Source of the DNA: Thermodesulfobacteriota bacterium | GTDB lineage: Bacteria; Desulfobacterota; GWC2-55-46 | DNA: 64,000 nt | Assembly: GCA_030583865.1 (NCBI GenBank) | Contig: CP129479.1 | Location: 62,001-126,000, forward strand | Direction of reading: 5' to 3' | Shown: positions 986-51,516 of the stretch, piece by piece | Layout: every line of letters begins with the position of its first letter | Numbering within the stretch: position 1 is the first letter of the stretch | Made by a program: the position numbers and the translations under genes | Notes under the pieces: model-generated | Databases searched by the model: none | What the model saw: the letters and a program-made list of their open reading frames with translations, nothing else | What the model was told of the DNA's origin: nothing

Positions 986-3900
986 CCGGAAATACCGGCC
1001 GGGAGGGGCCCACTTTCCTTCCCGTCCGTCACAAGGCCGGGCGAGGGCTTTCCGATAAGGTACCCTTGCGCGTAGTCCACCCCGAAGGACCTGAGTATCG
1101 AAAGCGTCTTTTCGTTCTCGACGAACTCGGCGATGGTCTTTATCCGGAGGCCCCGGGCCATCTCGGTCATCGCCTTCACAAGGACCTGGTCATCGGGGTT
1201 CTCGTCGAGCTTCCTTATGAAAGAGCCGTCTATCTTGATGTAGTCGACCGGCATCTCCTTTAGATAGGTAAAAGAGGTGAAGCCCACGCCGAAATCGTCT
1301 AAGGAGAACCGGCAGCCGGTCTCCTTCAGCGATTTCACGAACCTGATGGCCTTTTCGAGGTCGCCTATCGCGGCGGTCTCGGTTATCTCGAATACGAGCA
1401 TTTCAGGCTCAGCCCCGGTCTCCATTATCTTCCGTTTTATGAAATCAAGGAGCTCCGCGTCGCCCAGGTCCTTTCCGGAAAGGTTCATGCCGAAGGATAG
1501 GCCGCGCCCCGCTTTCATCTCTTCCGCCTGCGTGCGCATCGTCTTCTCTATGATGACCCGGTCTATGAGGCCCACAATGCCGAACCTCTCGGCGATGTCT
1601 ATGAACGCGCCCGGCAGGAGCACCTTCCCGTCCTCCGAGACGAGCCTCGCCAGGGCCTCGTAATGGTGTATCCCGTCAGTTTTCAAATCCAGTAGGGGCT
1701 GGAACCAGGGCACGAACCGGTTCTCCCTTATGCCCTTGAATATCCTTTCCTTCCACGCGAGCCTCGAATGCATCTTTTCAAGGTCCTGGTCCTCGGGCCG
1801 GTAGGCGTGGGTCCTGTTCCTTCCGAGCTCCTTTGCGCGGTACATGGCGGCGTCCGCCTTAGAGAGAAGCTCTTTCATGTGGAGTCCGTGGTCGGGGTAG
1901 AAGGCAACACCGGCGCTTACGGTAAGCGTGCTCGACGCCTCCGTGAAATAGAAGCCCTCGACCTCGGCCCTGACCGACTCGATTAATTCCATGCCCCTTT
2001 TCCGGTCGATACCCGGGAAAAAGACCGCGTACTCGTCCCCGCTAAGGCGTGAAAGGAGCGGACGTGAGTCGAATGCGGCCGGCTCCTCCCCGTATTCCCT
2101 GTCCAGGAGATCCTTGATGACCTTTCCGAGCCTCCTCAGGTACTCGTCCCCCGCGCCGTGGCCGAAGGTGTCGTTAAGGAGCTTGAACTGGTCCATGTCT
2201 ATTATCGAGAGCGCGGCTGTAACGCCCTTGGGCCCCGCCTCCAGCATCCACGCCTCAGCCTCCTCGATGAAACGGGAGCGGTTCATGAGCCCGGTAAGCT
2301 CGTCGTGCACCGCGAGGTAATTGAGCCGCTCCTCGTTCATCATCTTCTCGGTCACGTCCTCCTGCACGGCCAGGAAATGCGTTATCTGGCCCTTTTCGTC
2401 CCTTATGGGCGTGATGACGGAGTTCGCCCAGTAGTATGTGCCGTTCCTCTTTCTGTTCTTGAGGGTGCTCCGCCAGGTCCTGCCCGAGAGGATGGTATTC
2501 CATAGCTCCTGGTAAAGGGCGTTCGTTCCATCTCCCGATGAGAGCACCCTCGGGGTCTGGCCGATTATCTCCTCCCTCGTGAACCCGGTGACCTGCTCGA
2601 AGGTGGGGTTCACGTACTGGATGGCGCCGTCCCTGTCGGTTATGAAGAGGAGGTTTACGCTGTGCTCCAGCACCGCGGAAAGCTTCCTCTGCTCGAATTC
2701 AGCCGTCTTCTGCTCGGTCAGGTCCTGGACCGTGCCTATCATCCGCTGCGGCCTTCCCTGCGGGTCTGGCAGGACCTCCGCCTCCTCGTGCACTATCCGC
2801 ACCGTTCCGTCCGGGCGCATTATCCTGTGGTCGATGGAATAGGGCCGTCTGTTCTGGAAGGCCTGCGCGACCGAATTCTTCACGAACTCCCTGTCGTCCG
2901 GGTGCACGTATTCGAGAAAGGCCTCGTAGGTCGCGCCGAATTCCCTGGGCTTAAGGCCGAATATGCGGTAAATCTCGTCGGACCACCAGAGCGTGTTCTC
3001 GCGGATGTCCCATTCCCAGCTCCCCATGCGCGCGAGCTCCTGGGCCTTTCTCAGGCGCTCCTCGCTTTCTCTCAGGGCCGTTTCCACGCGTTTCCTTTCG
3101 GTTATGTCGGTAGAGACGCAGCAGATGGCGTACGGAAATCCCTCCTCGTTTAAAAGGGGGAATTTCATCGATATATACGTGCGGACCCCGCCGGGCAGGG
3201 GCAGGCTTTCTTCGAACTCGAGCCTCAATCGGCGTTCAAGGACAATCGAGTCGTTCTCCTTGAGGCTATCGGCCGCCTCCTTGGGCAGGAGGTCATGGTC
3301 CGTCCTGCCGGCCATCTCTTCGGAAGAGGTCCTGAAAAGGAGCTCGAATTCCTTGTTGACCAGGATGTACCTGCCTTCAAGGTCCTTCATGTATACCAGT
3401 GCCGAAGAGTTGTCCAGTATGGATTTCAGGCGCTTTTCGCTCTGTGCAAGGGAGCGGCCCCGTTCCTTTATCTGCCGGGCCATCTCGTTGAAGGCCCGCG
3501 CGATTTCGCCGATTTCGTCGCTTGTTCCGTCCCTGAGGCCCGTGTCGTAGTTGCCTTTTGCGATCTGGGCGGCCGCATTGGTCACGGCCTGGAGCTTAAG
3601 GACCACCCGGCGATGGAATACGATGAAGAGCAGGGCCGTAAGAAGGGCCACAACGAGGGCGGTAAGCCCCGCGGACCGGCCGATCCGCGATACCGGGAAA
3701 AGGGCCTCGCTTGAATCTATTTCGACCAGGAGGGTCCATCCGAGCTCAGGCAGGCACATGGACGCGCCAGCGACCTCGACCCCTCTATAATCTGCATAGA
3801 GGCCAGTCATCTCGCCGCCCCGCTCCAGGCAGGCAGAAACAGGCAACGTGTCCACGCGCTGGTCGAATGCGGCCCCGTCCCTGAAGATAGAGTCGGTTAT

Positions 3901-35968: not shown

Positions 35969-37063
35969 TCAGTAATCCGGCACCGTTATAGTCGTTTGAA
36001 CGTAGGGTTTTATTCTGATCAGAGAGTAAGGTACGGCCGTCGACATTCCTCCGGACCAACCCCAAAACGCGATGCTGTCCCCGCCTGCTCTCCAGCCCCA
36101 AAAGGCCGGGTCTATCTGCCCTGATTGCTCCGCGGCGGAATCCAGAACCCAACTCAAGAAGGCCGCCCTGCCGCCCAGGACCAGCCCGCCCTGGCCATGT
36201 CTTACTGCCCCGCGCTTTATAACGGCCGTCCCGCCGAGAATAAAGCCGCCGCTCCCGGTTATGGACGGGCTGGCGGGCTCCCCTGTCATGTCGGCCGACC
36301 CGCCGAGAATGAAACCTCCGGTTCCCGCCAGGGATTGCGTTTGCGGTATATGGAGGTCTACGCCCCCCATTTCGCCCGACGAATACCTTTGCGCGCGGTT
36401 GCAGATGTTCCATAGCGCCCAGTAGTTATCGCCATATACGAACTCATCAATCTCTCGGTCGAAATCGAGCGTTAGCGTGGTGACCAGGTTTGTCCGCGCC
36501 GCATCGCTGAAGAGCTTGAGGTTTACTCTTCCGTAGGTTCCGCCGTCCACCCTCTCGAATCGGCCATAATAGCCAGTGTTAAGGGAGATGGTCGCCTCGG
36601 TTGAATAGGTCTCCGGATTGACCCCTATCTCCTCCGTATACGAAATCGAAAAGAATGCCTTTAGTGGCCCGCCTTCTGTCTCTCTCCTTATGTCGGCATA
36701 CAGGTATGTTTTGGCCCAGTTCTCCTCCCAATTCGGGTCCCATATCGGCGCGGAAGTAAGCTCATAAATCTGGAGCCTGTGGGTGCCGACTGTCCCGCCG
36801 CCCTCGAACTCGGTAATCTTGAAATAAAAATCATGCCGGAAATTCCCGCATGGAGTTCCCGAAAGAGCTGCCAGCTCCCGTGCGCCATATGCGGTCGCCT
36901 CGTCGCCGTATTCGGTGCCGCCGTAGCTCGGCCCGGCAAACAATTTCGTCCAGGTAAAGTAATCCTGGTAGACCGTAAATACAGGGTCGTAAGGAGGGTC
37001 GGGCTGAAGCCGTGCGGAGTAGAACTCCCACGGCGGCTGCTGTAAAAGGTCCTCGATGGCCAT
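35969..37063 (-). CDS. Tail-tip protein with GGFxLGG repeats
   Basis: A 364-residue protein. The first 230 residues are predicted beta structure (WEFYSARLQPDPPYDP at the start). Residues about 235-330 hold three copies of a glycine-rich phrase: GTGGFILGGSADMTG, then 'GSGGFILGGTAVIKR', then 'GQGGLVLGGRAAFLS'. The same phrase recurs in the upstream neighbour (37064-37927). The position after the baseplate-hub-like genes suggests a structural or fibre role. The ATG follows the neighbour's stop with no gap, so the two are co-translated. Confidence 0.65.
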   Translation of the reverse strand: MAIEDLLQQPPWEFYSARLQPDPPYDPVFTVYQDYFTWTKLFAGPSYGGTEYGDEATAYGARELAALSGTPCGNFRHDFYFKITEFEGGGTVGTHRLQIYELTSAPIWDPNWEENWAKTYLYADIRRETEGGPLKAFFSISYTEEIGVNPETYSTEATISLNTGYYGRFERVDGGTYGRVNLKLFSDAARTNLVTTLTLDFDREIDEFVYGDNYWALWNICNRAQRYSSGEMGGVDLHIPQTQSLAGTGGFILGGSADMTGEPASPSITGSGGFILGGTAVIKRGAVRHGQGGLVLGGRAAFLSWVLDSAAEQSGQIDPAFWGWRAGGDSIAFWGWSGGMSTAVPYSLIRIKPYVQTTITVPDY

Positions 37064-37927
37064 TTATTCCACTATGACAACTTTGCTGCGGACCTTGGTG
37101 GCCGGGTTGTACTCGTAGGTCATCACGGGGTATTCGCCGTTTGCATCAAACGCAGCCCAAATTTCAATACCTTCAGGAGTTACAGATATTCGAGCAAACT
37201 TGTGAGTCATAAGCACGTAAATCGTTTCTATCTTGGCCGCCAGCTCGGGCGATATGCTCGGTTCGCTGTAGGGCGTACCTGTCATCGTCCCCGAGCCGCC
37301 GAGCACGAAGCCTCCTGAGCCGTTTATGGTCTGGTCCTGCGCCTGCCCGGCTGGCGTACCTGTCATCGTCCCCGAGCCGCCGAGCACGAAGCCTCCTGAG
37401 CCGTTTATGGTCTGGTCCTGCGCCGAGCTCTCCTGATAGATGATCCCTTCGATACGGGAATCCCTTGTGGAATTACCGTAAGTGAGCTCCGCCTCGCCCC
37501 ATTCGGCGGCATCGGCAAAGGTCCATCTGATAAAATCCCATGTGGCCGCGCTCAATACCCCGTCAAAGCCGAGCTGGGCTGAAATCCATGTCCTGGTGTA
37601 TGTGTTGGCTCCTATAATGAGCTTTTCAACGACCTTGATGGCATCTGTTGAAACGACAGAAACATTATTATTGAGCGTAAAACCGGCGTTCTGATAGCCT
37701 TCGCCATCTGCACTGCGCGAAACGGACGCGACATCCGTGCCCAACGAGGTTTCAGAGCCGTTTGAATGGCGAATAGAAATATTCGCCCGCCAGGTAACCG
37801 TCCCGCCGGAATACCCGGCTCCATGCGCCTCCGGGTCTCCGGACGTCTGGACGGTGTCGAGCTTTTTTCCGGCCTGCCCGTTTATAGTGACGTCGGTTTT
37901 TGTATGGTGAAGGATCAACTCTGCCAT
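37064..37927 (-). CDS. Tail-tip protein with a perfect tandem repeat
   Basis: A 287-residue protein. The N-terminal 180 residues are beta-rich and include a Ser/Thr-rich core (ISIRHSNGSETSLGTDVAS). Then comes a 27-residue repeat present twice, QDQTINGSGGFVLGGSGTM followed by TGTPAGQA-type sequence. The last 60 residues form a separate small domain ending 'KVRSKVVIVE'. The repeat shares its GGFVLGG phrase with the next gene. It probably belongs to the tail fibre or tip, where repeats lengthen a shaft. No enzymatic motif is visible. Confidence 0.65.
   Translation of the reverse strand: MAELILHHTKTDVTINGQAGKKLDTVQTSGDPEAHGAGYSGGTVTWRANISIRHSNGSETSLGTDVASVSRSADGEGYQNAGFTLNNNVSVVSTDAIKVVEKLIIGANTYTRTWISAQLGFDGVLSAATWDFIRWTFADAAEWGEAELTYGNSTRDSRIEGIIYQESSAQDQTINGSGGFVLGGSGTMTGTPAGQAQDQTINGSGGFVLGGSGTMTGTPYSEPSISPELAAKIETIYVLMTHKFARISVTPEGIEIWAAFDANGEYPVMTYEYNPATKVRSKVVIVE
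37272..37424 (-). repeat. Perfect 72-base tandem repeat with period 81
   Basis: Bases 37272-37343 are repeated without a single change at 37353-37424, separated by nine bases, so the period is 81 bases or 27 codons. Identity at third positions means the duplication is recent or kept uniform by recombination. It lies inside the tail gene 37064-37927. Confidence 0.9.
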
Positions 37928-41342: not shown

Positions 41343-42106
41343 TCCCGCGTTCCCTCCATGTCGAGGACCAGCTCGTCTACCAGGCTCAGGACGCTAAGCG
41401 GCGTCTGGTAGGTAGCCCCGTCCTTCATCTTGACGAAGAAGGCGTCCTCCGGAAATTCATCAAGGTCCCAGGAGTAGAAGAACTGGTTCATGCCCCGCGC
41501 GTGCCCTTCCCAAAAAGGGGCGTACTCCTCGAAGACAAAATCCCGCGGCAGGTTTGCAAAACGCGCGTTTATCTCTATGGGGCTGTACCTTATGACGGTC
41601 CCCAGGGCGTGCCCTTTTTTGCTCCTCGAGGTCTCGGCCTCGCCGATCTCCTTGAACGGTATATAAGGCGACTCGGGCGGGTAGGGGAACTGAAGCCTTT
41701 TCCCGAACATAAGGACCGCCATCTTTGGGGCCGCGCTCATGCCTGTTATCCGGAGCCGCCAGTGGCGCTTCCATTCCTGGGTAAAGCACCGGAGGATCGA
41801 CTTGTCGTTCTCCGGGGTGAGACTCATTACGGTTTCCCTGTTGCCGCCCCATTGCTCGTCAGGGCACCACTGGAGGTCTATGGTGGCGCCGATGCTTCCG
41901 AGGTTGTGCCCTGCTATCCCGAGGCAATCGACGGGCCGGGGCTCGCCGCAGTCGATGGTAATGGTCTGCTCATCGGTATTCGCCGCCTGCCAGAAGGTAT
42001 AGGTACGCAGATCCCGCAGGTTCAGGACGCTCGTGCCAGTGGCCTCGCTTGTGGCCACGGGCGCCCCGTCATTCAGCCGGTTATCGTAGAGGATCACGGG
42101 CTCCAT
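41339..42106 (-). CDS. Tail protein with discoidin-like N-terminus
   Basis: A 255-residue protein. Residues 10-130 (LRDLRTYTFWQAANTDEQTI, 'DCLGIAGHNLGSIGATIDL', 'RHWRLRITGMS') resemble the F5/8 discoidin fold used in phage tail tips. The second half carries 'PFWEGHARGMNQFFYSWDL', a pattern seen in proteins just downstream of the tape measure in B3-like phages. Its ends overlap both neighbours, one base with the tape measure stop and four with the hub gene, so it is firmly part of the tail operon. A role in the distal tail is probable. Confidence 0.65.
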   Translation of the reverse strand: MEPVILYDNRLNDGAPVATSEATGTSVLNLRDLRTYTFWQAANTDEQTITIDCGEPRPVDCLGIAGHNLGSIGATIDLQWCPDEQWGGNRETVMSLTPENDKSILRCFTQEWKRHWRLRITGMSAAPKMAVLMFGKRLQFPYPPESPYIPFKEIGEAETSRSKKGHALGTVIRYSPIEINARFANLPRDFVFEEYAPFWEGHARGMNQFFYSWDLDEFPEDAFFVKMKDGATYQTPLSVLSLVDELVLDMEGTRE

Positions 42107-44283
42107 CAGTGTACGTTGTCCTCCACGGCCTTCTGTATCGAGGGAAGCATTATGCGCGCAAGCTCGTCATGGCTGTTGAGCACGTCCCCGTAAATATGCA
42201 CCTCCACGGCTATGGGCCGTTTCTCAGGCTCGAGCCTCTGCGGGACAGGGTACGCGTTCGGCGAGCCGCCCCCGTATGACGGAGTGGCCGAGCCGCCCGC
42301 GCTGATGCTCGCAGTGCTGCCCGGCTGCTGCGATTTAATGGCCTGCACCCTTGCCATGCCCGCAGCGATCGCGGCAGCCGCCGCCGCAACGCCCAGGGCA
42401 GGGCCGACTATCGGTATCGAAGCAAGCGCCGTGTATGCCTGCTGTGCGCCCTTATACGTCGATATGACCGTCTCCGCGATCGCAAAGACCTTCATGGCCT
42501 CGAACATGGCCTTGTTCTTCGAGCCGGTCGCGGTATAGAGGTTTTGCAGGATGTTGGACATGGCGCCAGCCGCACCTGCGGCATAGGAGAGTTTCAGCTC
42601 ATTTTTCTTTTTCTCCGTCTCGGTCTCCAGGTGGCTGTACATCTCAAATATCTGCTGTTGAGAAGCCCCTGAGTCGATCATCGCCTGGATGACCTGGGCG
42701 TTGTAGTCGTGCAAGGCCCCGAGCTTCTGCTGGTATTTGGCCTGTAGAGCGCCTATCTCGTTATCGCCCTCGAAGTTCTCGATCGAGGGCTCGTAAGGGC
42801 TTTCCTGCTTCAATTTCACGAGGTCCTGTTCAGCCTGCCTTTTGCTCTTTTCCTCTTCGATAGCCCTTTCTATTTCAAGCTGCCTTTCTCTGGCGGCAAC
42901 ATATCTCTCGACTTGCTCTGTAGTGGCCCCCTGGCCCGAGAGTTCGAGGCTTTCGAGTTCCAGCTGCCGTTCCTTGCTCGCGTTAAGCTTTTCAGTAGCC
43001 ACCCCGACAGAACGAATCCTCTCCTCGGCGCGTGCCTCGGTTACTTCAGCCTCCTTGGCTGCCTTAGCCTCGTTGAATTTTTGCTGTGCCGCCGTGAGCT
43101 CGTTTACCAGCTTTATATCCGCACCCTTGGCGACGAGGCTTTTACTCTGCGCCTCGGAATACGCCGAGGCGCTCATCGTAAGCCTGTTGTATTCGTCACT
43201 GAGCTTTTCGATCTCCGACCTGAGTGATTTATTAAGTTCCTCTATTTTCTTTGAGGTGGATTCGCCCTCGTTTTTCGCCTGCTGCTGAGAAGCGGCATAC
43301 GCGGCCATGACGGTCTCGCTTGATTCAAATATCGTTTTAAGGTTCTCCTGCGACTTCTTGGCCAGATCGTCTGCGGCCGCAAAAGCGGCCTCCGCGTCCA
43401 TCTCCCATCTCTGTGTAGCCCCGGATGTTATTCCGAGCCAGTCGGAAAGCTTTGACAGCGCGGATATCATCTTGAAGATGCCGCCCGCGAGGAAGAGCGC
43501 CGCGGCGGCAGCTCCCTGGAAAATCCCGTATAAGGCTATCCCGCCTTTTACTACAAAAGCACCTGCCATGAGCTTGAGATTCCCTATCGTGGCCGTGAGC
43601 TGCTCCATTTTCTCCTTGGCGGTAAGGACCTCGAGGTTGTGCCTGCTGAGGGCCTCTTTCCCGGCCTCCAAGGTGGAGTTCAAGATCGCGAGCTTCTGGT
43701 CCTTGGCCGAGAGCTCCTCGACCGACTTTCCGAGGGACCTGGCCATCGCCTCGTTCGCCTCGCCAAGTCTGAGGGTAAGGCCGAGGTTATCGATGATCAT
43801 GGGGCTTCCGCGCCCGATGCCAGTAGCGAGGTCGTTGAACGCCTGGGTGGTGGATATCCCCATGTCCCTGGCCTTGGCCCTTGCCACGAGCATGAGGTCT
43901 CCGAGCTTTTCGACCGGTATCTGAAGGGACATGGCCCTGTTGGCAGCTTCCGTAAGGGACTTGTTATCGATCATCCCTGCAGAGAGGGTCCTCAGGCGTC
44001 CAAAGACCTGCTCCGCATCGTGCCCCATGCCCTCGACCATCGAACGGAAAGCGGCCCTCGACTGCTCGTACTGCGCAGCCTGCTCGGCGAGGTTCCAGGC
44101 GCCCTGCAGAGCTTTCACGGCTCCGTAGACCGCTGCCGAGACCTCGAGCCAATGCTTCTTGATCTTCCCGGTGAGCCCGCCGGTAGAAGTCTCGAACTTC
44201 TCGGTCGATTCCTCGACCTTCTGCATGTTCTCGATGTAGGCCTTGCCGTTCGCGTCGATTACTATCGTGACCTTGTTAGCCAT
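42106..44283 (-). CDS. Tail tape measure protein
   Basis: A 725-residue protein that sets tail length. The N-terminal 230 residues have the typical tape-measure domain (FGRLRTLSAGMIDNKSLTEA, 'AMSLQIPVEKLGDLMLVARAKA', 'QAFNDLATGIGRGSPMIIDNLG'). Two hydrophobic stretches lie near residues 245-285. A long coiled coil (about 330-560, many Glu/Lys/Gln) follows, then a third hydrophobic region (600-690). At about 1.5 angstroms per residue the tail would be roughly 100 nm. The start overlaps the end of the frameshift extension of the chaperone gene by 22 bases, as in lambda, where the GT protein loads onto the tape measure. Confidence 0.9.
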   Translation of the reverse strand: MANKVTIVIDANGKAYIENMQKVEESTEKFETSTGGLTGKIKKHWLEVSAAVYGAVKALQGAWNLAEQAAQYEQSRAAFRSMVEGMGHDAEQVFGRLRTLSAGMIDNKSLTEAANRAMSLQIPVEKLGDLMLVARAKARDMGISTTQAFNDLATGIGRGSPMIIDNLGLTLRLGEANEAMARSLGKSVEELSAKDQKLAILNSTLEAGKEALSRHNLEVLTAKEKMEQLTATIGNLKLMAGAFVVKGGIALYGIFQGAAAAALFLAGGIFKMISALSKLSDWLGITSGATQRWEMDAEAAFAAADDLAKKSQENLKTIFESSETVMAAYAASQQQAKNEGESTSKKIEELNKSLRSEIEKLSDEYNRLTMSASAYSEAQSKSLVAKGADIKLVNELTAAQQKFNEAKAAKEAEVTEARAEERIRSVGVATEKLNASKERQLELESLELSGQGATTEQVERYVAARERQLEIERAIEEEKSKRQAEQDLVKLKQESPYEPSIENFEGDNEIGALQAKYQQKLGALHDYNAQVIQAMIDSGASQQQIFEMYSHLETETEKKKNELKLSYAAGAAGAMSNILQNLYTATGSKNKAMFEAMKVFAIAETVISTYKGAQQAYTALASIPIVGPALGVAAAAAAIAAGMARVQAIKSQQPGSTASISAGGSATPSYGGGSPNAYPVPQRLEPEKRPIAVEVHIYGDVLNSHDELARIMLPSIQKAVEDNVH

Positions 44284-44534
44284 AGCTCGAATTCATCCTT
44301 TAAGACCCCGATATCGGTCCACTCCTGGAGCGTCAGATCATCCGCCTCGAAGGGAAAGCCGCCGCGCTGTAGCCTGAAAAGGTTCCATATATGGCCGAAC
44401 CACCTGCCCGGCTCATAGGGCTTTGAGAGCGGGCATCTGGCGCACATCGTTGCGAGGTGAGGCCCGGAGTTTGCCGCGCACTCTTTTTTCTTCGCCGTCG
44501 TGCACCTGTCGAGAAACCTCTTTAGTTCTTCTCC
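44262..44534 (-). CDS. Frameshift extension of the tail-assembly chaperone (lambda T-like)
   Basis: This frame has no good start of its own: the first ATG (44447) lacks a ribosome site, and the frame is open back through the stop of the upstream chaperone gene. If ribosomes slip back one base at 44534-44540, the product continues LGEELKRFLDRCTTAKKKEC and then adds a zinc-binding-like set of cysteines (MCARCPLSKPYEPG) and a helical end. About 90 residues are added, giving a fusion of about 228. A short chaperone with a -1 extension directly before the tape measure is the standard siphoviral arrangement (lambda G and GT). Confidence 0.78.
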   Translation of the reverse strand, partial: GEELKRFLDRCTTAKKKECAANSGPHLATMCARCPLSKPYEPGRWFGHIWNLFRLQRGGFPFEADDLTLQEWTDIGVLKDEFELWLTRSR

Positions 44535-44947
44535 AAAGGGGCGGGCTCTTCGTCAATGACCTCCTCGATATCGATATCGTCCGCGGAATCCACCCTTACC
44601 CCCTCGAATACCGCGAGTGCGAGCGTACGCACTATGTCGGACGCGCCCTCGGCCACTATCATCTTCCAGTCATCCCGGTAGTTCGGGTCGTTCGGGTCGC
44701 TCGATATGGGCTCGCCGCCCACGCCGAAGTCGCCGGTCCTGAAGCCGGTGAGTATCTTTAGGCCGAATTCCGCTCTCACATCGAAGGAACGGACGACTAT
44801 CTTGCCGCCCTTCTTTTTCATAAGCCTGGACTGATAAAGCGCCTCCTCCCTGGACGTGGGATTCCGGTAGTAAAGCTCTATCTCCGAGCCGCTCCGGGAG
44901 TCGAGGACAGTCAAAGTGTTTTTTTCGCTTCTGGTGAGTTCCCTCAT
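44522..44947 (-). CDS. Tail-assembly chaperone (lambda G-like), zero-frame product
   Basis: A 141-residue protein from ATG 44947 (MRELTRSEKNTLTVL), which is preceded by ggagg at a proper distance. The longer open frame (to 45169) lies inside the tail tube gene and is disregarded. The acidic C-terminus (EEVIDEEPAPLEKN) contains the slippery codons. Homologues in long-tailed phages coat and stabilise the tape measure before the tail tube polymerises. It lies 27 bases after the tube gene stop, just as lambda G follows V. Confidence 0.82.
   Translation of the reverse strand: MRELTRSEKNTLTVLDSRSGSEIELYYRNPTSREEALYQSRLMKKKGGKIVVRSFDVRAEFGLKILTGFRTGDFGVGGEPISSDPNDPNYRDDWKMIVAEGASDIVRTLALAVFEGVRVDSADDIDIEEVIDEEPAPLEKN
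44534..44540 (-). promoter_or_regulatory. Programmed -1 frameshift slippery site
   Basis: Minus-strand bases read C CCT TTG in the zero frame. This is the canonical X XXY YYZ heptamer CCCTTTG, with re-pairing CCC TTT possible in the -1 frame. It is placed three sense codons before the zero-frame stop TAA (44522-44524). The -1 frame is open for 90 codons beyond it. Confidence 0.8.
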
Positions 44948-44973
44948 CTGTTCATCCTCCGCTTTCTTCTTTT

Positions 44974-45909
44974 TTACTGGAATGAAAGGCTTATCTCGTC
45001 GTTGCCCGCGTCCGGCGTGAATATGATGGGGAGCGCGTAGGTGAGTATGTTCTCCCGGTCGCCGTACTTGGGCACGTCGAGCTGGACCTTGGGTGCAGTT
45101 ATCACGCATTTGTTCCCCGCCGCGCTCCCCACCGTGGCCGAGAGCGCAACCTGGGCCGACGTCTCCCACATGGACCAGAAGTTTTTGGTCGCGAGCGCCA
45201 CGGCCTCAGGGTCGCACTCGCCCTTGATGGATCGCCCCTTGATGAAATACTCGAGTATGCCCGTCGCCGCGTTCGCGCTGTTCCGCCTGGCTATCTCGTT
45301 CCCGGCGTCGAATTTGAAGTTCTCGATCACCGCCGCGTACCCGTCGATGGCGAAAGCCGCGGAAAGGACCCTGGCCGGGTCGGTTTCGTTGAAGACCGGG
45401 TCCGCCGGGATGTTCTGGTCCACCGGCCCCTGCCACAGGCCCGTAAAATCGAATTTGACGTTCCCGTACTCCCCGGCCTTGAGCTCGACACCGAAGGTGC
45501 CCCTGCAGCCCGAGACCTTATGGAGGATGTTGTGCCGGTAGAAATAGATGGTGACCGACTCGCCGGTAGACGCGTCCGAGTTGGGGTCGTAGTCCACCTG
45601 GGTATCCGGCGTGACCGTCTCCGTGAAGTTGCAGGCCCTGAGAAGCGGCCCGATTTCCGGCGCGACACCCAGAGCGCCAGATCCCTTGAGCTCGGTGGTG
45701 AACGATACCTTCACCCCTTCGCCGATGTTGAACCCGGTCTGCGCCCCGTAATGCGGCTTCACGTTTGCGCGCTCTATCCTCCTCCCGAGAGATTCGACCT
45801 CGGGCGCGGAACAGAGTATTGCGTTTGCGGCGGCCGTGGGCACCGGGTCCACCCCGTAGCCGCCCGCTTCAAGCTTCACGAGCACGACCGCCTTGCTTTT
45901 CTGGAGCAT
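44974..45909 (-). CDS. Tail tube protein
   Basis: A 311-residue protein placed between the head-tail connector genes and the tail chaperone, the position of the tube subunit in siphoviral transposable phages. It shows a beta-rich sequence with an early 'GVDPVPTAAANAILCSAPEVES' and regular short strands ('VKVSFTTELKGSGALG', 'YGNVKFDFTGLWQGP'), as in HK97-type tail tubes. No sheath (Mu L) gene is present on either side. An aaggag ribosome site precedes ATG 45909. High expression is expected. The assignment rests on size, order and strand pattern. Confidence 0.72.
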   Translation of the reverse strand: MLQKSKAVVLVKLEAGGYGVDPVPTAAANAILCSAPEVESLGRRIERANVKPHYGAQTGFNIGEGVKVSFTTELKGSGALGVAPEIGPLLRACNFTETVTPDTQVDYDPNSDASTGESVTIYFYRHNILHKVSGCRGTFGVELKAGEYGNVKFDFTGLWQGPVDQNIPADPVFNETDPARVLSAAFAIDGYAAVIENFKFDAGNEIARRNSANAATGILEYFIKGRSIKGECDPEAVALATKNFWSMWETSAQVALSATVGSAAGNKCVITAPKVQLDVPKYGDRENILTYALPIIFTPDAGNDEISLSFQ

Positions 45910-50235: not shown

Positions 50236-51516
50236 TCAGTCTCTTCCATATAGAAGCCTGCCCTTGCGCAGGTTTTTTAATGCCGTAACGCTCCCCCGAA
50301 AGAATCCCTCACCGGTCCACAGTCCATTCCTTGTTTCGGCATACATGCCAAGAACCCTGTCCTTTTCATCAAGGCGAAGCAGCTTGACATACCTCTTCCG
50401 TATCGCGACCCTGCCCGACATCTCGCTTTTTGCGAAACCGACCCATATCTCGTAGGGGCTCTCGATCAATTCCGGTATGAAAGGGAAGTAGGCTTCACGC
50501 CCGTCCAGTCGACGCGACACCTTTACCATATGGTCCACTATGGCCTGCGTAACCAGCGCTCCTTCGCCTGTCGGGTCCCTGAACGTCTTCTCATCTCCGC
50601 CGATAGCTTCTTTCAGTGCGCGCCTGACGCCTTCTATCGTGTCTGAGGGCTTACCGAGATCGGCCTTGGGCTGGTCCGCCGGAATCCGCTCTCGCCTCCC
50701 ATAAGCCGCAGGCCCCCGCGGGTCCAGGTCCACCCACGGCCCTTTGTCCTCCATGAGCCTCAGCGCCTCGTTGCGCCCCCAGGCCGCCTCTCCGGGGTTG
50801 TAGCCCCAACCTGGGTCTATGCCCTGAGGCACCTTGATAACCTCGCCGGTACGCGGATTGCTCCATTCATAGCTCTTCACAGGAGGGGCCTTGCTCACCT
50901 TGAGGCCCTGTTTTTCCAGCTCACGCCCAGAGAGGCTTATCACCTTGCACTTGCATCCCCATCCGTTTGGCGGGTAATGAGTCTTCCACCACGGGTCGTC
51001 GGCTGGCAGCACCATGCCGTTCCATTCAAGGTGCTCGGGCCTCGGCTCGGCGGAGAGGCCGCCTATGTATTGCCAATACGGCCGCTCGCTAATGACATCC
51101 GGGTCGGTCATCTGGCTGTAATGCCCGGTCGCGTAGGCCGTCCTCATGTTCGTGTTGAAGATCGTCGCGGTCCTCCAGCCCCTGCCGCCCTTGTAGCTCC
51201 ATCCGTGCTTCTCCACGGTCTTGTCAAAGGACTTCCGGAACTCCTGTATAGTGGTGCCCTTGGCTATGGCATCGTCCACCGCCGTCCTGAGGTCCGAAAG
51301 CAGTTCCCCCTTCATGGCCCCTGCCACTACAAAGGCCCTCGAATGCATGCCTTCCCAGAGGTCCGTCCACCTCTCGGTCGGGAGGTTGACTTTCTGCCTG
51401 AAAAACTCGATGGCCTTATCAAAGGGAAGGCTTGTGAATCTTGCGTCCATTTTGCCCAAAAAGTCCCACAGTGGATTTTTCGCCTGAGCCGCCTTTTCGA
51501 GGTCGGCCCTGCCCAC
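50236..51516 (-). CDS. Head morphogenesis protein (Mu gp30/F family, minor capsid)
   Basis: A 426-residue minor head protein with the SPP1 gp7-like core: 'GTTIQEFRKSFDKTVEKHGWSYKGGRGWRTATIFNTNMRTAYATG' and the cysteine-containing 'HYPPNGWGCKCKVISLS'. It associates with the portal and aids DNA ejection in Mu-like phages. The start is assigned to GTG 51516, immediately after a GC-rich hairpin. No ribosome site is visible there, so translation may be coupled to the portal gene 55 bases upstream. Confidence 0.87.
   Translation of the reverse strand: MGRADLEKAAQAKNPLWDFLGKMDARFTSLPFDKAIEFFRQKVNLPTERWTDLWEGMHSRAFVVAGAMKGELLSDLRTAVDDAIAKGTTIQEFRKSFDKTVEKHGWSYKGGRGWRTATIFNTNMRTAYATGHYSQMTDPDVISERPYWQYIGGLSAEPRPEHLEWNGMVLPADDPWWKTHYPPNGWGCKCKVISLSGRELEKQGLKVSKAPPVKSYEWSNPRTGEVIKVPQGIDPGWGYNPGEAAWGRNEALRLMEDKGPWVDLDPRGPAAYGRRERIPADQPKADLGKPSDTIEGVRRALKEAIGGDEKTFRDPTGEGALVTQAIVDHMVKVSRRLDGREAYFPFIPELIESPYEIWVGFAKSEMSGRVAIRKRYVKLLRLDEKDRVLGMYAETRNGLWTGEGFFRGSVTALKNLRKGRLLYGRD

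Follow-up and report, generated by a model that had tools for sequence, protein, structure and literature searches.

The tail chaperone locus of a Mu-like prophage

The window analysed here, a stretch of 64,000 nucleotides from the genome of a Thermodesulfobacteriota bacterium, contains on its minus strand a prophage that, judged by its genes, is a Mu-like transposable phage. A MuA-like transposase and a MuB-like ATPase are encoded, and the gene order runs from a Mu-type terminase through gp27, portal, F protein, major head protein and gp36 to the tail genes, which comprise a tail terminator, a tail tube protein of the Phage_tube_2 type, a chaperone gene and the tape measure gene. Since no sheath gene was seen between the head and the tube genes, the tail is presumably of the siphovirus type. 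The Mu F-like head protein (window positions 50236-51516) carries a C-terminal PBECR2 nuclease-like domain (Pfam 2.8e-20), and two adjacent tail-region proteins (35969-37927) contain repeat motifs of the GSGGFVLGG type. The chaperone gene sits between the tail tube and the tape measure genes, the usual place of a gene of the G/GT type. The features of this region, with the evidence for each in brackets, are the following.

44974..45909, minus strand: tail tube protein gene (Pfam Phage_tube_2, 4e-15)
44955..44960, minus strand: Shine-Dalgarno GGAGGA of the chaperone gene, 7 nt 5' of its ATG (sequence)
44522..44947, minus strand: zero-frame tail assembly chaperone gene, ATG to TAA, 141 aa, with a putative gpG-like domain and an acidic linker (ORF with ribosome site, gene position, predicted fold)
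44559..44566, minus strand: GAGGAGGT, Shine-Dalgarno-like, 18 nt upstream of the heptamer (sequence; strength largely due to a Glu-rich peptide)
44534..44540, minus strand: putative slippery heptamer C CCT TTG, pairing after a -1 slip on CCC TTT (sequence; CCCTTTN conserved in 42 non-duplicate homologues)
44522..44524, minus strand: zero-frame stop TAA, with the heptamer and three sense codons before it (sequence)
44265..44534, minus strand: -1 frame extension of 90 codons, a putative T-like domain with four cysteines (sequence, alignment of 76 members, predicted fold)
44262-44264, minus strand: stop TAG of the -1 frame extension (sequence)
42106..44283, minus strand: tape measure protein gene (PHROG tape measure matches, best 2.6e-15)

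The 3' end of the chaperone gene reads GCC CCT TTG GAG AAG AAC TAA, so that CCCTTTG is a canonical slippery heptamer in the X XXY YYZ phase, with three sense codons between it and the stop. Open from 28 nt ahead of the zero-frame stop, the -1 frame reads through 90 codons after the slip and ends within the tape measure gene, whose ATG (44283) it overlaps by 22 nt. In the -1 frame, counting from the CCC of the heptamer, none of the seven start codons of translation table 11 is found before codon 31; the ATG at that codon falls between the second and the third conserved cysteines, and no ribosome site was seen at it. The fusion predicted from the sequence would have 228 aa and contain the cysteine pattern C..C..CARC. 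An earlier note on this DNA had described the in-frame heptamer, the 90 open codons reaching the tape measure start, a downstream frame devoid of its own ribosome site and a predicted 228-residue fusion with four cysteines, and these descriptions hold at the level of individual bases.

In-frame XXXYYYZ heptamers occupy 17 of the 5,888 slots available in 20 genes of the prophage, and at this rate the chance of finding one in the nine-slot overlap is about 2.6% (about 1 in 40). Taken alone, the heptamer in the window is therefore modest evidence, and it is its conservation that makes the case strong. A comparison of the window with a homologous locus (L028) gave, upstream of the heptamer, 14, 6 and 33 substitutions at the three codon positions in the zero frame and, downstream of it, 10, 6 and 23 at those in the -1 frame. 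The third-position peak thus switches from the zero to the -1 frame, which indicates that the coding frame changes at the heptamer. The -1 frame, with its 90 open codons, its conserved domain and this third-position excess, shows the marks of selection at the protein level.

Slippery sites and separate genes among homologues

Used as queries, the two proteins of the window and the tape measure protein gave no match in viral contigs, and against a phage collection the two proteins gave only chance-level matches in Gordonia phages. Homologues first emerged when 297 genomes from the phylum of the host were searched and when the tail tube protein was used as a query. The second domain, once aligned, served as the next query and found 28 loci in species genomes plus another 80 in IMG/VR. 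Profiles of both domains then rendered 93 non-duplicate loci holding both, 83 of them arranged as in the window and 10 with separate genes. Members of the family occur in many environmental viral contigs and in genomes whose labels are Deltaproteobacteria, Desulfobacter and relatives, Nitrospina and Nitrospinae. When all members were compared with Pfam and PHROGs, neither domain gave matches that were strong or consistent; such a match is not strictly defining, since the tail assembly chaperones known so far are highly diverged. In 92 of the 93 loci a -1 shift separates the reading frame of the second domain from that of the first, and in none are both domains fused in one frame. The exception is L033 (positions 2615-3615), where some 220 nt separate the two domains and the second is read in +1 with respect to the first.

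A canonical in-frame X XXY YYZ sequence is present at the junction of 70 of the 83 window-like loci. It is CCCTTTN in 42 (CCCTTTG in 35, CCCTTTA in 5 and CCCTTTC in 2) and another heptamer in 28 (AAAAAAC in 13, GGGAAAG or GGGAAAC in 8, CCCAAAC in 3, AAACCCT in 2, and AAAAAAA and AAAAAAG in one each). The comparison of homologues that the earlier note had proposed as a check on CCCTTTG has thus come out in its favour, and the heptamer, which that note considered less usual, is the commonest within the family. The conservation is at the nucleotide level. The codon preceding CCT at the CCCTTTN sites is NNC in 42 of 42 loci and yet encodes ten different amino acids, so that what is conserved is nucleotides and not a residue. 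Moreover, proline is encoded by CCT at all 42 sites versus 47 of 324 prolines elsewhere in the same genes, CCCTTTN in the slip phase occupies a single one of 10,435 other slots in these genes, and in a DNA alignment of 20 members CCCTTT provides 6 of the 12 invariant columns. The homology of the second domain starts directly after the heptamer. Taken together, the comparison raises what might have been a 1-in-40 coincidence to strong evidence, drawn from sequence conservation, for a frameshift.

No canonical heptamer was found in 13 of the 83 window-like loci. Related non-canonical sites are GGGGGAA in L119 and L120, a recurrent phage motif according to PRFect (PMC10885494), GGAAAAG in L034 and L118, and CCCCTTG in L045. 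In a related group (L043, L051, L116 and L117) the first gene ends in GAC CCT followed by a non-slippery codon, ACC (or ATT), and TAG, and the second domain runs in the -1 frame from GGA CCC TAC/TAT CTA, a conserved junction lacking a canonical heptamer; L103, placed beside this group, has A AAC CCT. Six loci labelled Nitrospinota, Nitrospinaceae or Nitrospina (L046, L047, L049, L052, L054 and L055), whose divergent first protein was missed by the profile, carry A AAA AAC immediately ahead of the stop, and their second domain is in the -1 frame.

In a midpoint-rooted FastTree phylogeny, the ten separate-gene loci group together as a single clade (support 0.966) that lies within the frameshifting members, and at their junctions no in-frame canonical heptamer is present. 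In seven of them (L005, L010, L017, L021, L023, L041 and L053; L019, L033 and L037 being less clear) an ATG or GTG in the -1 frame overlaps the stop of the first gene and is preceded by a strong ribosome site (-8.9 to -10.3 kcal/mol). The median length of the zero-frame tail is 12 residues in this clade versus 24. It appears from these sequences that the frameshift was lost and a coupled start gained in one clade, a state that would be derived if the midpoint root is right, and the second domain would there be made as a free protein. The literature examined provided no precedent for separate chaperone genes. Homologues lacking the heptamer and having a start of their own, which the earlier note had regarded as evidence against a frameshift, do therefore exist, but they are confined to this clade, itself nested among frameshifting relatives.

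It is improbable that the window shares this arrangement, with its -1 frame started independently or by coupling at the zero-frame stop and no fusion made. The nested clade seems to work in that way in seven of its ten loci, with an ATG or GTG and a strong ribosome site, and an AGAGG located just 3' of the zero-frame stop of the window is weakly Shine-Dalgarno-like. On the other hand, with the first 31 codons of its -1 frame offering no earlier start, initiation in the window would cost the first two conserved cysteines, and 51 of the 83 window-like loci have no ATG, GTG or TTG in the searched stretch, while in the remaining ones most starts precede the junction or have a weak ribosome site. 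Independent initiation would, besides, leave the conservation of CCCTTTN unexplained.

Two further explanations have a still smaller probability. Slippage of the RNA polymerase instead of the ribosome could operate on the A runs of some clades (AAAAAAC, AAAAAAA), which might slip either way, but known sites of transcriptional slippage are long runs of A or T (PMC3711429), the longest homopolymer at the site in the window is of at most 4 nt, and the ribosomal phase of CCCTTTN is kept in 42 of 42 loci, all of which makes this explanation very improbable for the window. The lack of a start in the -1 frame is also what would be expected of a broken gene, that is, of a single chaperone gene split across two frames by decay or by a sequencing error. 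The same relation between frames is, however, found in 92 of 93 loci from many phages, none of them fused in frame, and both frames have an excess of third-position substitutions, so that this reading, to which hardly any probability can be given, is refuted by the comparison of homologues.

Proposed frameshift mechanism and protein domains

The chaperone gene thus very probably directs the synthesis of a G-T fusion by -1 programmed ribosomal frameshifting at CCCTTTG, an event of the known G/GT kind. Most ribosomes would read the gene to its TAA and produce the gpG-like protein of 141 aa, while a minority would shift by -1 at C CCT TTG. In this tandem slip, tRNA-Pro in the P site would exchange CCU for CCC and tRNA-Leu in the A site UUG for UUU, and the slipped ribosomes would continue for 90 codons to render the 228-aa fusion with its four-cysteine C-terminal domain. 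By analogy with phage lambda (PMC5009743), the short form would coat the tape measure protein and the fusion would recruit tail tube subunits. The heptamer, its phase, the open -1 frame with no start in its first 31 codons, the switch of coding frame and the conservation are observed, whereas we infer that slippage occurs, as well as its efficiency, the ratio of the two products, the chaperone function and the existence of one metal site shared by the cysteines. Among the tRNAs of the host are tRNA-Pro GGG and UGG as well as tRNA-Leu CAA and UAA. The tRNA-Pro GGG would pair better after the slip, but the Leu anticodon mispairs with the third base of UUU, which counts against slippage.

No stimulator has been established, because the downstream structure is weak and the upstream signal is mostly a matter of acidic-peptide composition. 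In the window, the structure that begins right after the heptamer has -6.3 kcal/mol (z about 0.25). Single members with AAAAAAC or GGGAAAN fold well below shuffled sequences (z down to -5.5), and a consensus downstream helix for those clades was tested and not supported. The upstream Shine-Dalgarno-like strength averages -10.2 kcal/mol, compared to -4.2 in other parts of the gene, but synonymous shuffles already give -8.5 kcal/mol and only 4 of 42 sites go beyond 90% of their shuffles, so that little of the signal is left for a Shine-Dalgarno stimulator. In the window, the upstream sequence GAGGAGGU lies 18 nt from the heptamer, within a Glu-rich stretch, and this Shine-Dalgarno-like sequence remains a possible stimulator.

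The model of the first domain (pLDDT 88.6) gave matches to chaperones that are recurrent but weak. The best structural match was 3fgx, an uncharacterised protein (Z 6.7), followed by YqbN (3klu, Z 4.5) and the HK97 chaperone (2ob9, Z 3.9), and many BFVD matches are annotated as tail assembly chaperones. Foldseek E values for the structural matches to known chaperones were above 0.001. The predicted fold is thus weakly indicative of a tail chaperone-like domain. The second domain is predicted to consist of four helices (pLDDT 93.2); none of the four PDB chains retrieved by Foldseek reached Z >= 2, and nothing of note was found in BFVD.

Its four cysteines are conserved in 74, 76, 76 and 76 of the 76 aligned members, in most of them with the spacing C-x7-C-x(10-19)-C-x2-C, and all four are absent from the six loci of the Nitrospina type. 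This all-or-none pattern would fit a single metal site. In the model, one helix (DSSP) extends over residues 15-35, which include C21 and C33, and it does not obviously bring the four cysteines together. The extension had been called zinc-like in the earlier note; what speaks for that name is the conservation of the four cysteines, and the metal site itself is a prediction.

A putative new chaperone family and its relation to known systems

The family, apparently absent from Pfam and PHROGs as far as sequence comparison can tell, adds to the frameshifting tail chaperones a group whose second domain gene callers will usually miss because it has no start codon. It also constitutes a natural experiment, in which related phages have CCCTTTN, AAAAAAC, GGGAAAN or an apparent coupled start that replaces the slip; since relatives differ in this way, the reason why G must be fused to T becomes testable. 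Frameshifting of this kind is already well known in phages. Most of the interest lies in the cysteine domain and in the separate-gene clade. A bolder reading, which we hold tentatively and consider slightly less probable than its opposite, is that the -1 extension represents a metal-binding T domain (Cx7Cx10-19CxxC) not described before, so that the initiation of tail assembly would be metal-dependent, and that one clade has escaped frameshifting by means of a coupled start and supplies T unattached, in contrast to lambda, where T is joined to G.

The gpG and gpGT proteins of phage lambda result from a -1 frameshift (Xu, Hendrix and Duda 2004, as reviewed in PMC5009743). The window shares with lambda the position between tube and tape measure genes, the short zero-frame protein with a -1 extension and an X XXY YYZ sequence near the end of the first gene, and differs in having CCCTTTG where lambda has GGGAAAG and in the four-cysteine second domain of its family. 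No relative by sequence was found in the phage collection, and the literature searched, which covered few subscription papers, yielded no tail chaperone described with CCCTTTG. Phage Mu shares the Mu-type head and transposition genes and the order tube, chaperone and tape measure, but it has a sheath, the shift in its gp41 region is of -2 (PMC5009743) and the family profile gives no match to its chaperone.

Among published cases, the closest is that of the D3112 group of Mu-like siphophages; for PaMx73 and D3112 a -1 slip at T TTT TTC has been predicted in the chaperone gene (PMC4378225). These Pseudomonas phages, as well as B3, are transposable and Mu-like, with long flexible tails and the order tube, chaperone and tape measure, although their site lies 130-133 nt before the zero-frame stop as compared to 16 nt in the window. 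Profiles of both domains gave no match in the tail regions of D3112, B3 or Mu. The chaperone ORF44 of B3 (NC_006548) has an in-frame C CCT TTC (L136:9447-9453) 130 nt before its stop, and its -1 frame is open beyond that stop. Judged by sequence and by its position, close to that of the site of the D3112 group, this C CCT TTC is likely a frameshift site of the CCCTTTN class.
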